Shown: one piece after another, positions 2,388-15,389 of the stretch
Numbering within the stretch: the stretch's first letter is position 1
Layout of the letters: every line of letters begins with the position of its first letter
Assembly: GCA_947627845.1 (NCBI GenBank)
Contig: CANQXQ010000004.1
Coordinates: 1 to 36,045 of the forward strand
From: an uncultured Bacilli bacterium
GTDB taxonomy: Bacteria; Bacillota_I; Bacilli_A; RF39; UBA660
Length of the DNA stretch: 36,045 nucleotides
Direction of reading: 5' to 3'
Made by a program: the position numbers and the translations under genes
The notes under the pieces: model-generated
The model's database searches: none
What the model was told of the DNA's origin: nothing
Seen by the model: the letters and a program-made list of their open reading frames with translations, nothing else

Positions 2388-3311
2388 ATGACATATACGA
2401 TTAAAGTAAAGGAAGAAATTGTAAAAAATCCCCTAAATGAAACAGAAAAAATATGTGAATTATCGGGCTTTTTACGCTTTTCCGGCCTATTTAAAGATAA
2501 TATTAGTATAACTTTAGAAAATGCCAGTGTCACTAGACGCATATATTGCCATTTTAAAGAATTATTTAATATTCAGCCCAAAATTATAATTCGTAATCAA
2601 AAACGATTTAGGGTTAAACAAATATACATATTAGAAATAAATGAGAAAGTAGAGCATATTCTTAAAGTTTTAAATGTCATGGAAGATAATAAAAAAGTTT
2701 TACCGGAAAATTACTTATTTTCCACTAAAGAAGAAATAATTGCTTATTTGCAAGGAGTATTTTTAGCCACGGGAACTATCAATGATCCTGCCGTAAGTGG
2801 TTATCATTTAGAAATAGTCACTAATTTAAATCGTGAAGCTATATTTATTGTTAATCTCTTTAAAAAAATTAATATAAATGCCAAATATTTAAAAAGAAAT
2901 TCAAAGTATATGGTATATATTAAAAATGCCGAAGTAATTAGTGAAATTATAAGAATGTTTAAAGCCACGCAAAGTTATTTTTATTTTGAGGACATTCGTA
3001 TTTATCGTGATCATAAAAATATGGTAAATCGCCTTAACAATTGTGAAATTGCTAATCAAGAAAAGACTATTAGCTCTGGCTTAAAGCAATTAGAAGATAT
3101 TAAATATTTAAAGGACAACGATTTATTTAGTTTACTTGATGATAGTACTAAATTAGTCCTTGAATATCGAGAAAAATACCCTGAAACTTCCCTAAAAGAA
3201 CTAGCCGATATTATTACTATGGAAACCGATTATAAAATAGGTAAAAGTGGGGTTAACCACCATTTTATTAAGGTTAGAAATCTTATTAAAAAGCATCAAG
3301 CTAAAGAATAA
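2388..3311 (+). CDS. whiA: DNA-binding protein WhiA
   Basis: LAGLIDADG-like N-terminus (YLQGVFLATGTINDP) and C-terminal HTH (SLKELADIITMETDYKIGKSGVNHHFIKVRNL); yvcK-whiA synteny. Confidence 0.93.
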   Translation: MTYTIKVKEEIVKNPLNETEKICELSGFLRFSGLFKDNISITLENASVTRRIYCHFKELFNIQPKIIIRNQKRFRVKQIYILEINEKVEHILKVLNVMEDNKKVLPENYLFSTKEEIIAYLQGVFLATGTINDPAVSGYHLEIVTNLNREAIFIVNLFKKININAKYLKRNSKYMVYIKNAEVISEIIRMFKATQSYFYFEDIRIYRDHKNMVNRLNNCEIANQEKTISSGLKQLEDIKYLKDNDLFSLLDDSTKLVLEYREKYPETSLKELADIITMETDYKIGKSGVNHHFIKVRNLIKKHQAKE

Positions 3312-3433
3312 TTAGCAAAATTCATCTAAAATCCAAAATTAATTCTTATTTTAAATAATCCTTTTATGATTAGGGGAAAATAAGTGGAGAGATTTGATTT
3401 GAATAAAGTTTGAGATTTTGATTTTGCCCAATT

Positions 3434-3462
3434 TTGACAGTTTCACTTATTTGTGGTAATAT
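3434..3462 (+). promoter_or_regulatory. Predicted sigma-A promoter for the LRR-transglutaminase/HD-ART operon
   Basis: TTGACA, 17-nt spacer, TAATAT; ATG at 3486 follows aaaaaggag SD. Confidence 0.7.
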
Positions 3463-3485
3463 ATACACCATAAAAAGGAGATATT

Positions 3486-4679
3486 ATGACTATTAATAAT
3501 AATGATTTAGCCTTAGAAATATTAAATGAACTCATTACTCAAAAAGTCCGTTCTAGTTTTTTTGGCTTTAATGGTACATTTACTCCGGAAGAATTAAACC
3601 ACATTACTAAAATAACTTTAAAGGGAGTAACTTCATTAGATGACCTTGAAAAATTGCCAAATTTAAAAGAATTAAACATTTTTAGTGATGACTCATCGAA
3701 TATAATCAACCCTGATGAAGCCGATATTAATCATATTCTAGATTTTAGCCCTCTAGAACAATTAAAAAATTTAAAAACATTACGAATATATAATGATTGC
3801 TTTTTAGAAAGTTTAGATTTATCAAACATGACGAGCCTCCACCGCGTACAATTAGTAAATAATACCCATTTACAAACTTTACGAGGATTAGATAAATTAA
3901 TGAATCTACAAGAAGTTGTTTTATTAAATAATGGTTTAGCCACTATTGAAAATATAAAGGATTACATTGAGCATACTAAAGATACAGCTGTAAATGTCTT
4001 TGATTTAACTATGTTTCCTAATTTATTTGGCGAAAATTTTAAAGATAGACGATATTTAGAAGAAAAATTAGCCATGGAAATGTCCAATTTAATGTTTGCC
4101 GAAAAAGTTTCATTTGGTGATGGCGAGTTTATTTTAACGTATGATAAAGTTAAGAATATGTATCAAAGAGTAAAGCAAATTATAAGAAATTTACATATTA
4201 GTTTTCCTCCCACTTTTGAAGATTTAAAAAGAATACATACTTATATTGCTTTTTCAATCAAATATGACTATGCTGGTTTAGAATATCGTGATCAAAATTA
4301 TCAAAGCACCTTAATAAAAGATGGTAAAGAAAAAGATTATTTTATGAATAGATTAAAGTTAATGAATACTAGTTTTGGGGCAATAGTTAATCATAAAGCT
4401 GTTTGTGAAGGATATGTCAATATGATGATTTTTATGTTAAATACTTTAGGCATAGTGGCCAAACAAGTAAGAGTAGGCTTAAAATCTTCTAATTTAGATC
4501 ATGCCATCATTAAATTTCAATATAATGGTGAATGGTATTATGCTGATCCGGAAAAGGAGCGGGAAACTAAAAGTATAGACTTATTTGCTTTAAGTTTTGA
4601 CGAGTTAAGTAGAAAATATGTTTTACCTCTAAAAGAATATATAGATAATAATCAAAAACAAGAAATGGAGTTAGTATAA
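3486..4679 (+). CDS. Leucine-rich-repeat protein with C-terminal transglutaminase-like (papain-fold) domain
   Basis: LRR-like repeats (LEKLPNLKELNIF, LEQLKNLKTLRIY, LRGLDKLMNLQEVVLLNN); Cys/His/Asp segments KAVCEGYVNMM, LDHAIIKFQYNGEWYYADPE. Confidence 0.75.
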   Translation: MTINNNDLALEILNELITQKVRSSFFGFNGTFTPEELNHITKITLKGVTSLDDLEKLPNLKELNIFSDDSSNIINPDEADINHILDFSPLEQLKNLKTLRIYNDCFLESLDLSNMTSLHRVQLVNNTHLQTLRGLDKLMNLQEVVLLNNGLATIENIKDYIEHTKDTAVNVFDLTMFPNLFGENFKDRRYLEEKLAMEMSNLMFAEKVSFGDGEFILTYDKVKNMYQRVKQIIRNLHISFPPTFEDLKRIHTYIAFSIKYDYAGLEYRDQNYQSTLIKDGKEKDYFMNRLKLMNTSFGAIVNHKAVCEGYVNMMIFMLNTLGIVAKQVRVGLKSSNLDHAIIKFQYNGEWYYADPEKERETKSIDLFALSFDELSRKYVLPLKEYIDNNQKQEMELV

Positions 4680-6149
4680 ATGCGTCCTAGTTTTTTAACC
4701 GAAATAATTAATAATTCCGATATTTTAAGTAGATATCCCAATTTAAAGAAATATTTAGATAAAGAAAAAATTAATGAATTAGTTCAAAATATTCAAACCC
4801 AATATTTATACCCAAGTAAATTTCATGGCTTATATCATTCTGAAAAAGTTGCTTTTTTTAGTTTTATAATTGGCAAATATTATAATTTAGATCCTGAAGA
4901 CATGGAAATTATTTTAGATGCGGCAGTATATCATGATATTGGTCGTACTAGTGATTTTGAAGATACGACTCATGGTTTAACTAGCTCTTTAAAAATAGGA
5001 TTTTTAAAAGATAAACAGATTTACACTAATGAAATCAATTTTAAACTATTAAAAGCTATTATAGATGGCCATTGTTTAGACGATAAATCCAAGAAAATTA
5101 TTTTTGAAAATTATGATTTACCCCAAACAGAATATGAGCGGTTTAATCTATTATATTCCATCTTAAAAGATGCGGATGCTTTAGATCGTCTTCGCTTTGA
5201 TAAAACTATGAAAGCCATCTTAAATGATTGTTATCTTCGTTTACCAATTTCTAAAAGACTTATTCCTGTCGCGGATTATCTTAATAAAGAATATCGACAT
5301 TTAATTGATATGAAGAATTATGATAATATTCAAAACTTACTAATTAATCAAGAACCCCATCTTTTTTATCATGGAATTGGCTTTAATTTTTTTGCTATTC
5401 CCTCTATTTTAAAAAATGGTATTACTTCTCTTTATTCTGATAAAAGTAATCCTAAACATATTAGAAATTTTGCGGGCCACAATAATAATATGTGGATTTC
5501 CGCTATTGATGCCGAAAATTTAAAAGAGGGGTATCAAGAATTTATTAAAGATGGCCTTTATTTTGAATTTACATCTTCTCTTTATCATCATGGCTTGGAA
5601 AATAAGATAACCTCGCTCGATTCTGGTATGCCTTATCGTAGTAATCTTTATCAAGATGAAGTCTTTATTTTTGAAAGTATAGCTCCCGAAGAAATAATAA
5701 GTTTGAGCTTATCTAAAGAAATGTTTGATAAACCTTTTAGAACTATTAATCTCATTAAAGGAACTAACTCTTATGAAAAAGTCAAAGAAAGAGTTAATTA
5801 CTATTGTCAATTTTTAAATCCTAAAAAAGTTAAAAAATATCAACAATTATTTGAAGCTTATTTTCAAAAACTTTGCGAAAATACTGTTCACTTTGAACAC
5901 TTAAATAATTATGAACAACAACAATCTTATCAAGAGTTTTTATCTTCTCAAGATGATTTAGTAATGACTATCAATAATTTATTAGTTTTGCTATATATCA
6001 ATGATTTTAAAGATGTTAGTCCGAAAAAAGACCTAACCGTCGGTGACTTTTTACTTTATATTTTAAATAGTCATCAGATTTCCTATACAATAAACGATGA
6101 AAATCACCAAGTAAAAATAACTTTTCCTACAATCCAATTAAAAAGATAA
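4680..6149 (+). CDS. HD-domain phosphohydrolase fused to an ADP-ribosyltransferase-like C-terminal domain
   Basis: HD residues GLYHSEKV, AAVYHDIGRTSD, IDGHCLDD, LKDADALDRLR; C-terminal FYHGIGFNFFAIPSILKNGI, NMWISAIDAENL and DEVFIFESIAPEEI resemble ART H-[Y/S]-E motifs. Confidence 0.65.
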   Translation: MRPSFLTEIINNSDILSRYPNLKKYLDKEKINELVQNIQTQYLYPSKFHGLYHSEKVAFFSFIIGKYYNLDPEDMEIILDAAVYHDIGRTSDFEDTTHGLTSSLKIGFLKDKQIYTNEINFKLLKAIIDGHCLDDKSKKIIFENYDLPQTEYERFNLLYSILKDADALDRLRFDKTMKAILNDCYLRLPISKRLIPVADYLNKEYRHLIDMKNYDNIQNLLINQEPHLFYHGIGFNFFAIPSILKNGITSLYSDKSNPKHIRNFAGHNNNMWISAIDAENLKEGYQEFIKDGLYFEFTSSLYHHGLENKITSLDSGMPYRSNLYQDEVFIFESIAPEEIISLSLSKEMFDKPFRTINLIKGTNSYEKVKERVNYYCQFLNPKKVKKYQQLFEAYFQKLCENTVHFEHLNNYEQQQSYQEFLSSQDDLVMTINNLLVLLYINDFKDVSPKKDLTVGDFLLYILNSHQISYTINDENHQVKITFPTIQLKR

Positions 6150-6719
6150 TTATATAATTTCATCAATGAGTCCATAATTTAAGGCTTCGGATGCGCTCAT
6201 ATAATTATCTCTTTCGCAATCTTTCGTAATTTGTTTAACGGATTTATGAGTATTTGAAGCTAAAATATTATTTAGCTTTTTTTTCATTTTTAAAATGTGT
6301 TCCGCGTGGATTTTAATATCTGTTGCTTGACCTTGCGCCCCACCCAAAACTTGATGAATCATTATTTCAGCATTTTTTAGGGCAAATCTTTTTCCTTTAG
6401 TCCCACTTGAGAGTAAAAATGCTCCCATTGAGGCGGCCATGCCTACCACAATAGTTCTAACATCACTTTTAATATAGTTCATTGTATCATAAATAGCTAA
6501 ACCCGAAGTAACTGACCCCCCAGGACTATTAATATATAAATAAATATCATCGTGGTTTTGGGCATCTAAATATAAAAGCTCACTTACTACAATACTTGCT
6601 AAATTATCATTAATTTCACCACTTAAAAATATAATACGATCTTTAAGTAAGCGGGAGTATAAATCATAAGCATATTCTCTATTACTACTTCTTTCAATAA
6701 CTGTTGGTACAATATTCAT
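6150..6719 (-). CDS. clpP: ATP-dependent Clp protease proteolytic subunit
   Basis: [34 protein letters not shown]; catalytic [14 protein letters not shown] and [16 protein letters not shown]. Confidence 0.97.
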
Positions 6720-12160: not shown

Positions 12161-12571
12161 ATGGCTAATTATTTAAAAGATTTTCTCTTCTTTTTAGGCG
12201 TATTTATTATAATTTTTATAATTGATTATTTCTTTATTAATAAGAAAAAATTAAAAAGAATTAATAATGCTGGTCAAACTAAAAAGGGTAAAGCTAAAAA
12301 AATAAAACCAATTGGGGAATTAGATTATTTAACTACTAAATTTAAATTAGATCCTAAAAAGCTTAATAAAAATAAAGTTATCTTTTGGATTTCTCTAATT
12401 AATAGTTTTATTATTTCTTTTACCTCTAGTTTTATTATATTAATTAAATTAAAATTAGTTTGGCAATTATTAATCGCGTTTGTTATGCTTTTTGCCCTCA
12501 TATATGCTTTATATGAGTTATATGGTCGGCATTTAAAAAAATTAGAAAGAAAAAATAGAAAGAGTGAGTAA
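12161..12571 (+). CDS. Small membrane protein of unknown function
   Basis: ORF of 136 aa with predicted TM segments ([56 protein letters not shown]); between T-box and leuS. Confidence 0.75.
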
Positions 12572-12572
12572 T

Positions 12573-15389
12573 ATGAATACTAAAGAAATTGAACAAAAAT
12601 GGATTAAATATTGGGATGAAAATAAAACCTTTAAAACTGATATAACTGATTTTTCTCGGCCTAAATATTATTGCCTAGATATGTTTCCATACCCCTCAGG
12701 TGTTGGCTTACATGCTGGGCATCCTGAAGGTTATACTGCGACTGATATAATCTGCCGCATGAAAAAAATGCAAGGCTATAATGTTTTACATCCTATGGGC
12801 TTTGATTCTTTTGGTTTACCGGCGGAACAATATGCGATAAAAACTGGTAATCATCCCGCCATATTCACAAAAGAAAATATCGAAACTTTTAAAAAACAAT
12901 TAAAAATGTTAGGTTTTGCTTATGATTGGGACCGCGTTATATCTACTTCTGATCCTAGTTATTATAAATGGACACAATGGATTTTTAAAAAATTATATGA
13001 AGATGGTTTATGTAAATATGTTGATATGCCTGTAAATTGGTGTGAAGAATTAGGCACCGTTTTATCAAATGATGAAGTTATAAATGGTAAAAGTGAACGA
13101 GGTGGTTACCCCGTTGTCCGTAAAAATATGAAACAATGGGTTATTGATATACCTAAATATGCCGAAGAATTACTTGCTGGTTTAAATGAAATAGATTGGC
13201 CTTTATCAACTAAAGAAATTCAAAGAAATTGGATTGGTAAAAGTATTGGGGCTGAAGTTAATTTTAAAGTTTATAATACTGATTATTCGTTTACTGTTTT
13301 TACTACTAGATGTGATACTTTATTTGGCGCTACCTACTGTGTTTTAGCTCCGGAACATGAATTAGTGGAAAAAATTACTACTAAAGAACATTTAGACGAA
13401 GTAAAAAAATATCAAGATGAATGTGCTCATAAAAGTGATTTAGAAAGAACCGAACTTAATAAAGAAAAAACAGGAGTTTTTACTGGCGCATATGCTATAA
13501 ATCCTGTTAATAAAGAAAATATTCCCATATATATAAGTGATTATGTTTTAAAAAGTTATGGAACTGGCGCTATTATGGCTGTTCCGGCCCATGATGAAAG
13601 AGATTATGAATTTGCTTTAAAATTTAATATTCCTATTATTCAAGTATTAGAAGAAATTACTGGTACTCCTCATGAAAATGAATTTAAAAAAGAATCAATT
13701 GTAGCAATTATTCATGATAAAAAAGAAAATAAATATTTAACTGTTAATTGGCATGAATTAGGTGGTCGTCTATTTATTGGAGGGACGATTAAAGATGGTG
13801 AAAGTCCTTTAGAATGTGCGATAAGAGAAATAAAAGAAGAAACTGGTTATCAAAACTTTACTTTAAAATATACTTTACCTCTTATTAATCATCATTATTA
13901 TGCTTATAATAAAGATAAATATTTTAATATAAATTCTATCGGTTTATACTTTGAATTAGATGATTATGAAAAAGAAAAACAAAATCTAGATGCCGATGAA
14001 AAATTTGATTTAGAATGGGTTGATGAAGCGACTATTTTAAATGAAGTAAAAGATGAGTTACATGCTAAAACTTTTGCTTATGCACTAAATCCTGGAGCTA
14101 TGGTTGGCGATGGTCTTCATATTAATTCTGAGTTCCTTAATGGTTTAAATAAAGAAGAAGCTATTAATAAAATGCTAGAATATCTCGAAAAAAATAATTT
14201 AGGGAAGAAAAAAGTTAATTATCGTATTCGGGAATGGATTTTTGCTCGTCAAAGATATTGGGGTGAACCCATTCCAATTGTCCATTTTGCCGATGGTACT
14301 CAAACTACCTTAAAAGATAGTGAATTACCTTTAATTTTACCAGAACTTGAAAATTATTCACCATCTAAAACTGGCGCCTCACCTTTAGAGGCCGCGATTT
14401 CTTGGGTAAATGTCGAAATTGATGGTAAAAAAGGTAAAAGAGAAACATCTACTATGCCTGGTTCGGCTGGTTCTTCTTGGTATTTCTTAAGATATATTGA
14501 TCCTCATAATGATCAAGAATTTGCAAATTATGAATTATTGAAACATTGGATGCCTGTTGATTTATATGTTGGAGGCCCGGAACATGCCGTCGGTCATTTA
14601 TTATATTCGCGGATGTGGAATAATTTCCTATATCAAAAAGGTTTAGTTCCTACGAAAGAACCATTTAAAAAATTAGTTCATCAAGGAATGATTTTAGGCT
14701 CAAATGGAATTAAAATGGGTAAAAGATACCCTGAATATTCCGTAAATCCTAATGACATAGTAAATGAATATGGTGCCGATACTTTAAGATTTTATGAAAT
14801 GTTCATGGGACCACTAGAAGCTGATAAACCATGGAGTAATGATGGTGTTCAAGGATCTAGACGATTTTTAGATCGGGTATGGAACCTTTATGTTAATGAA
14901 AATAAAATAAAAGATGAAGATAATGAAAATTTAACTAAAATCTATCATAAAACTATTAAAAAAGTCACTGAAGACTATGAAAATTTAAGCTTTAATACGG
15001 CAATTAGTCAATTAATGATTTTTATTAATGCTGTTTATAAAGAAAAAGTTTACCCTAAATATATGGCTGAAGATTTTATTAAATTATTAAATCCTATTGC
15101 CCCATTTATAACCGAAGAATTATGGGAAAAACTAGGTCATAATAAAACTATAGCAAATGAACCATGGCCAAAATATGATGAAGCTAAAACTATTGATGAT
15201 GAAATAACTATTGGCATTCAAGTTAATGGTAAACTTCGGGGAGAAATTACTATTAATCTTGATGAAGATGAAGAAAGTATTAAGGCTAAAGCTTTAGCTA
15301 ATGAAAATGTTTTAAGACATACAGCTGATAAAGAAATCGTTAAAGTTATTGTTATTAAAGGTAAAATTGTTAATATTATTGTTAAATAA
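12573..15389 (+). CDS. leuS: Leucyl-tRNA synthetase with Nudix domain inserted in the CP1 editing domain
   Basis: [13 protein letters not shown] (HIGH region), RWYSR-type zone [21 protein letters not shown] (KMSKS equivalent); full Nudix box [23 protein letters not shown]. Start refined from 12564 to 12573. Confidence 0.97.
13782..13850 (+). other. Nudix box within leuS
   Basis: Translation [23 protein letters not shown] matches Gx5Ex7REUxEExGU exactly; surrounding inserted domain about 13690-14085. Confidence 0.95.

Follow-up and report, generated by a model that had tools for sequence, protein, structure and literature searches.

An LRR-transglutaminase protein and an HD protein with a predicted ADP-ribosyltransferase fold: a co-inherited gene pair of uncultured gut Bacilli

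Introduction

Toxins, phage defence and host regulation all draw on enzymes of the ADP-ribosyltransferase (ART) type. The enzymes known to reverse ADP-ribosylation are mainly macrodomains and DraG-type hydrolases. The two adjacent genes of an uncultured Bacilli bacterium that are described here lie in a stretch of 36,045 nucleotides (contig CANQXQ010000004.1, positions 1 to 36,045; hereafter, the window). A first-pass annotation, made from the DNA letters alone, proposed that the pair is a candidate undescribed system, possibly with a role in toxin-antitoxin activity, phage defence or sporulation regulation.

Locus organization

Gene 1 (3486-4679, 397 aa) and gene 2 (4680-6149, 489 aa) are located head to tail on the forward strand between whiA and clpP. 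As first annotated, the gene 1 stop codon (TAA, 4677-4679) abuts the gene 2 start codon (ATG, 4680). The features of the locus are as follows.

2388..3311, + strand: whiA, left border of a variable slot
3434..3462, + strand: promoter-like TTGACA-17-TAATAT with TG before the -10 element (10/12 match)
3475..3480, + strand: AAGGAG, resembling a ribosome-binding site, 5 nt ahead of the gene 1 start codon (ATG)
3486..4679, + strand: gene 1, LRR and transglutaminase-fold protein, 397 aa, predicted cytoplasmic
3594..3956, + strand: gene 1 LRR region, at about aa 37-157 (LRR_4; matches to internalin and other LRR chains)
4218..4550, + strand: gene 1 transglutaminase-like domain at about aa 245-355, bearing C307, H339 and D354 (PF01841 and DUF553)
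4680..6149, + strand: gene 2, HD-ART protein, 489 aa, ATG directly after the gene 1 stop codon
4761..5324, + strand: HD domain of gene 2, about aa 28-215 (PF01966; H53, H85-D86, H98, H131, D164)
5352..5729, + strand: predicted ART-fold domain of gene 2 at about aa 225-350, bearing H231, S274 and E327 (isolated-domain model and Foldseek)
5757..6074, + strand: mostly helical C-terminal domain of gene 2, about aa 360-465 (AlphaFold2 secondary structure)
6150..6719, - strand: clpP, bounding the variable slot on the right; convergent with both whiA and the pair

Both genes had been placed under one promoter. The TTGACA-17-TAATAT site is present at 3434-3462. Its assignment as the promoter of the pair is only suggestive because such sites are equally common in shuffled sequence (27 promoter-like sites in the region, 26.3 in shuffles, i.e. 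no excess). The part of the window around the pair contains no defence island, phage gene or mobile gene.

Gene 1: an LRR protein with a transglutaminase-like domain

Three Pfam models match gene 1 above their thresholds: LRR_4 (37 bits; cut-off 27), Transglut_core (PF01841, 24.0 bits; cut-off 23) and DUF553 (23.5 bits; cut-off 20.5). The putative catalytic residues C307 and H339 are invariant in the gene 1 homologues (both 26/26); at the D354 position, 23 of the 26 have Asp and the other 3 have Glu. Given the domain match and the Cys-His-Asp set, gene 1 can be classified as a predicted member of the transglutaminase-like superfamily, whose fold is compatible with either crosslinking or protease activity. 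Hydrophobic segments of the signal-peptide or membrane-helix type are absent from all 26 homologues. The LRR repeats, the Cys-His-Asp set and the lack of a signal peptide are thus as first described. A distant 513-aa LRR-transglutaminase relative is located directly downstream of a Clp ATPase gene (L257:3087-6993), where it has no HD-ART partner.

Gene 2: an HD domain, a predicted ART fold and a helical domain

The only Pfam family whose cut-off is passed by gene 2 is PF01966 (HD; 28.2 bits, cut-off 22). The residues H53, H85-D86, H98, H131 and D164 are invariant across 28 gene 2 homologues, which agrees with the full HD motif set read in the first pass; this ligand set suggests a two-metal enzyme. 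In Foldseek comparisons, the HD domain matches cyclic-nucleotide phosphodiesterases (best E-value: 1.8e-3). The motif, the PF01966 score and the phosphodiesterase matches agree in placing gene 2 in the HD phosphohydrolase superfamily. No signal peptide or membrane segment is present in the 28 homologues.

The C-terminus of gene 2 has no match in Pfam or NCBIfam. Fold comparison was needed because PDB sequence searches, with gene 2 alone or as an alignment, gave no weighty ART or HD match. An AlphaFold2 model built from the alignment of 28 gene 2 proteins has a pLDDT of 88.6 and a pTM of 0.82. When the full model is compared to the PDB using Foldseek, HD phosphodiesterases dominate, with the ART toxin TreX at rank 34; residues 217-392 were therefore folded alone (pLDDT 86.7, pTM 0.81). 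The best 50 PDB matches of this isolated domain are all ART-superfamily enzymes (50/50), including TreX, TreTu, DarT1 (8baq), PltA, pertussis S1, KptA/Tpt1 and pierisin, among others. TreX is the best match (E-value: 7.7e-4, probability 1.0). The viral models that it matches include a phage DarT and a putative RNA 2'-phosphotransferase. Because the TM-scores are modest (0.3-0.46), support for the ART assignment comes from the agreement among these matches. The comparison confirms an ART fold as the predicted fold of the gene 2 C-terminus; it is a fold assignment rather than a statement of close relationship.

H231 and E327 are each invariant (28/28), and the position of S274 is Ser in 26 homologues and Cys in 2. 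This putative active-site set was placed by secondary structure, not by superposition. Gene 2 would thus have the two sequence hallmarks of the ART superfamily, an NAD-binding first motif (R or H) and a catalytic Glu. The first-pass annotation had proposed 5330-6149 as the region to check for an ART fold. Such a fold is indeed predicted there, but it covers only about aa 225-350. It is followed by a distinct helical domain (aa 360-465) for which no Pfam match or other known relative was found.

Conservation and distribution of the pair

Gene 2 is found in 5/36 genomes of the same genus, and in all five gene 1 is directly upstream, preceded by whiA sequence, and clpP is directly downstream. A scan of 84,980 species genomes identified 28 loci with a full or nearly full HD-ART protein. 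Gene 1 adjoins the HD-ART gene in 25 of the 27 scan loci with upstream sequence (the exceptions are L079 and L080), and across loci the partner is a 360-435 aa LRR-transglutaminase protein. Among 291 genomes of the family, strong matches to gene 1 occur in 12, and 12/12 also have gene 2, whole or as a fragment at a contig end. Gene 2 is found without gene 1 in 2 genomes, so that 12/14 are paired (Fisher p about 1e-19, with genomes treated as independent). Pairwise distances for the two genes are correlated (Mantel r=0.91, 25 pairs), a value to which shared species history contributes. The first-pass annotation had held that a lack of ART similarity in the gene 2 C-terminus, or a lack of conserved adjacency, would speak against its proposal; both the similarity and the adjacency were found, as was the co-occurrence across genomes that it had suggested checking.

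The pair is a genuine co-inherited unit and more than a chance association: many genera share it, its two genes adjoin and co-occur, and their divergence is correlated. It is patchily distributed among a family of uncultured gut Bacilli, where it occupies about six chromosomal sites (whiA|clpP, infC-rplT-HAD|clpB, HAD|murE, ftsW|murG, near engB, and infC-rplT). In a class-wide search, the gene 2 type of ART is almost confined to this family. Stand-alone ARTs of this type, without an HD domain, also exist (L287-L289), and so the HD domain is dispensable for the ART. No gene 2 homologues were found in phage records and no gene 1 homologues in plasmid records. Viral contigs gave no matches in a single-sequence scan, and a profile scan of them gave only three relatives of the HD clade described below.

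The whiA-clpP slot and other Clp neighbours

Where the pair is missing from a genome of the genus, whiA and clpP nearly abut (e.g. L142, L144) or are separated by other genes (loci L137-L164). The slot fillers include Fic-family genes in about eleven cases and HipA_C-type kinases in two, along with single cases of unknown genes (354 aa, 242 aa) and of small acetyltransferase-like genes. The whiA|clpP interval (3312-6149 in the window) is therefore a turnover site in the genus. A possible reason for this turnover is that a gap between convergent genes is a neutral landing site. The slot shows an exchange of protein-modifying enzymes at a fixed place in these small-genome gut Bacilli and offers a way to find further modules of this kind.

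One Fic lineage of the slot has GNTR in place of GNGR (L268:3363-4277, - strand, with relatives in L137-L140, L150, L158, L161 and L164). These proteins are encoded beside clpP and match PF02661 at 27 bits; they apparently have Gln where the catalytic His is usual.

At the clpB loci of other genera, an upstream Fic motif is found in 7/28 loci (L166, L168, L171, L173, L179, L182, L185; several genera) and an HD-ART gene in 2/28. No Fic motif occurs among the listed downstream neighbours at the clpB loci. The Fic count is from a motif pattern set against a rough 0.5% background, and its p-value of 8e-11 is only indicative; about 147 Fic matches occur across the 36 genomes. In the species-level scan, the HD-ART gene is directly before clpB in 9 loci. 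The neighbouring ATPase, as at the seven Fic loci, is missing the N-domain. It is ClpB-like (TIGR03346, 1110 bits), with a score below the cut-off of 1232.

An HD clade fused to several ART families

The HD domain of gene 2 belongs to a clade with a common signature (HGxxHxxRV, YHD(I)GR, HG, KDADxLDR). Most of its wider members are single-domain proteins with no recognised ART, and in two loci (L085, L086) the genes are found beside Fic genes and before clpB. Other members are fused to ARTs of different families. In L129, the HD domain is joined to a PF03496 ART (66 bits), and a related ART-HD arrangement is found in L052 (31.7% over 303 aa, E-value: 2e-45). A contig of a viral collection (L276) encodes an 1838-aa protein with a DarT domain (PF14487, 46.5 bits; 33% identity over 283 aa to an annotated DarT) and an HD domain that scores 64 bits against the gene 2 HD profile. 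After this gene comes one for a DarG macrodomain protein (PADLOC, 166 bits), and type I restriction genes are close by. Fusions of the HD clade thus involve ARTs of three separate families (gene 2 type, PF03496 and DarT). An HD metallo-enzyme found in such fusions, once beside DarG, may represent a new step in ADP-ribosylation biology.

The L052 protein (L052:3-9554) is longer than 3183 aa, being cut by the end of its stretch, and ends in the L129-related ART region and the HD domain of the gene 2 clade. Further fused HD proteins look ART-like by eye (L113/L132, L117/L118/L053, L122, L099, L094), but Pfam gave no ART family for them and they are treated as uncounted leads. A profile comparison of one such fusion with the gene 2 ART was negative, as was a PDB sequence search of L122. 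The C-terminal domain fused to HD in L099 (L099:3467-5239) has a relative in L100 (L100:10548-11366) that is encoded on its own, beside the gene for a stand-alone HD protein, a case of fused versus split organization.

Comparison with known systems

The pair is made of parts of known kinds in what appears to be a new combination. DarT1 (8baq) is among the best structural matches to gene 2, and the HD clade of gene 2 is fused to DarT beside DarG in L276. Gene 2 differs from DarTG in that its partner is an LRR-transglutaminase protein, and PF14487 gives no match to gene 2, whole or C-terminus, at E-values up to 10. No macrodomain gene was seen among the neighbours in the window or in the ORF lists around homologues, some of which were profile-scanned. 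The Rhs toxins TreX and TreTu are the best structural matches to the ART domain, whereas gene 2 has no Rhs delivery part or immunity gene, is fused to an HD domain and is encoded in a conserved pair rather than in a polymorphic tip; identity to these toxins is only remote (14-18%). Likeness to KptA is structural only, there being no Pfam or NCBIfam match to the KptA family in the gene 2 C-terminus.

The PF03496 (ADPrib_exo_Tox)-HD proteins of L129 and L052 also carry an ART and an HD domain of this clade in one polypeptide, but the ART is of another class and precedes the HD domain, the proteins are long and no adjacent LRR-transglutaminase gene was seen. YedJ-type HD proteins (PRK10119) and cyclic-nucleotide phosphodiesterases share the HD fold and ligand residues of gene 2, whereas the gene 2 HD domain is fused to an ART and bears the KDADxLDR clade signature; stand-alone members of the clade match PRK10119 weakly (18 bits; cut-off 286). 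LRR proteins with transglutaminase-like cysteine enzymes (PF01841, DUF553) share the domains and Cys-His-Asp set of gene 1, which differs from them in having no signal peptide and in its fixed operon with an HD-ART enzyme.

Neither gene matches a described defence component in PADLOC at E-values up to 1, no model of PADLOC, Pfam or NCBIfam covers the two together, and non-exhaustive searches of the open-access literature turned up no account of an HD-ART protein paired with an LRR-transglutaminase protein. The pair can thus still be regarded as a candidate undescribed system. Its partner gene would bring to the ARTs a recognition and cysteine-enzyme subunit that was not found described with them. 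The roles originally suggested fared less well. No support was found for a role in sporulation. The toxin-antitoxin reading is weak: among ORFs of 80 aa or more in the homologous loci, no small antitoxin gene is conserved beside the pair and no classical antitoxin accompanies it, although the HD clade does occur in a DarT-DarG locus elsewhere.

Proposed function

The explanation that best fits these results, held tentatively and at somewhat under even confidence, is that the pair is an intracellular two-gene ADP-ribosylation module with a role in conflict or in stress response and regulation. The proposed model is as follows. Gene 2 would ADP-ribosylate a protein or nucleic acid using NAD+. 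The HD domain would hydrolyse a bond (phosphodiester or pyrophosphate) of the product or of a related nucleotide, and would thereby limit or complete the modification. The LRRs of gene 1 may recognise a partner or trigger, and its cysteine enzyme (a protease, deamidase or crosslinker) may act on a target or switch on gene 2. Housekeeping is a less favoured role than conflict or stress response because the distribution of the pair is patchy, with swapping of sites and turnover at the slot, and because the HD clade is fused to DarT beside DarG. The gene 2 homologues of L079 and L080, which have no gene 1, are evidence against the module reading, as are the stand-alone ARTs of the gene 2 type, the many single-domain members of the HD clade, and the lack of PADLOC matches and of defence or mobile genes around the pair.

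Among narrower or competing explanations, anti-phage abortive infection is possible but rather unlikely. Here the LRR-protease of gene 1 would sense infection and activate the gene 2 ART; this would modify host or phage targets and halt growth, with the HD domain as a brake or second effector. Patchy presence, cargo swapping at one slot and the DarT-HD and DarG genes beside a type I restriction system in L276 are in its favour, as is the effector or regulatory role described for papain-fold transglutaminase-like peptidases in bacterial conflict systems (PMC8195603). On the other hand, no defence genes adjoin the pair, PADLOC gives no match and five genomes of the genus retain the pair at a single site. 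A quite improbable explanation is nucleic-acid end processing, in which the HD domain would open a 2',3'-cyclic phosphate and a KptA/Tpt1-like ART would remove the 2'-phosphate with NAD+ to heal RNA ends. HD domains are able to act on cyclic phosphates, the first ART motif is His, KptA/Tpt1 is found at Foldseek ranks 8-14 and a phage RNA 2'-phosphotransferase model is matched. A 2H-KptA pathway has also been described (PMC9503650). However, TreX and DarT1 outrank KptA, the R-H-R-R set of KptA is not apparent by eye in gene 2 and no RNA ligase or RNase gene is nearby. KptA is not known to rely on a Glu at the ART motif III position, whereas E327 at this position is invariant (28/28).

The repeated proximity to clpP and clpB might instead mean that the module, like the Fic enzymes of the same slots, modifies a chaperone or protease (cf. 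FICD-BiP). This would account for clpP adjoining the pair in 5/5 genus genomes that hold it, and for the pair (9 scan loci) and Fic genes (7/28) found before clpB. It is nonetheless very unlikely: the pair is also found beside ftsW/murG, engB, infC-rplT and murE without Clp genes, the functions of clpP and clpB differ, and slots flanked by conserved genes may be neutral landing sites. One version, a tag for degradation by ClpCP, was dropped because the ATPase is ClpB-like without an N-domain, not ClpC. Least of all do we expect a secreted effector against a eukaryotic host or competing bacteria. The ART fold is typical of delivered toxins (TreX and TreTu are Rhs toxins) and giant ART-HD proteins are encoded in related genomes, but the gene 1 and gene 2 homologues (26 and 28, respectively) are without signal peptides or membrane segments, no secretion, Rhs or immunity gene is adjacent, and the two-gene architecture is constant, with no swapped C-terminal toxin.

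The module reading can be extended to the HD clade as a whole (HGxxHxxRV, YHDIGR, KDADxLDR). In this speculative extension, which we consider unlikely, the HD domain would be a general partner of ARTs that edits or reverses ADP-ribosyl marks or degrades their nucleotide products. Unrelated ARTs (gene 2 type, PF03496, DarT) would have acquired it on three or more occasions, and gut Bacilli would have made it part of a new system in which the LRR-transglutaminase subunit chooses or licenses the target.

Other genes of the window

Two further genes of the window are of note. A 248-aa gene at 363-1109, upstream of yvcK, is conserved in most of the genus genomes examined and has no match in Pfam, NCBIfam or PADLOC (E-values up to 1). 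The leucyl-tRNA synthetase gene (12564-15389) has a NUDIX insert (PF00293, 48 bits, aa 396-501) after the editing-domain match.
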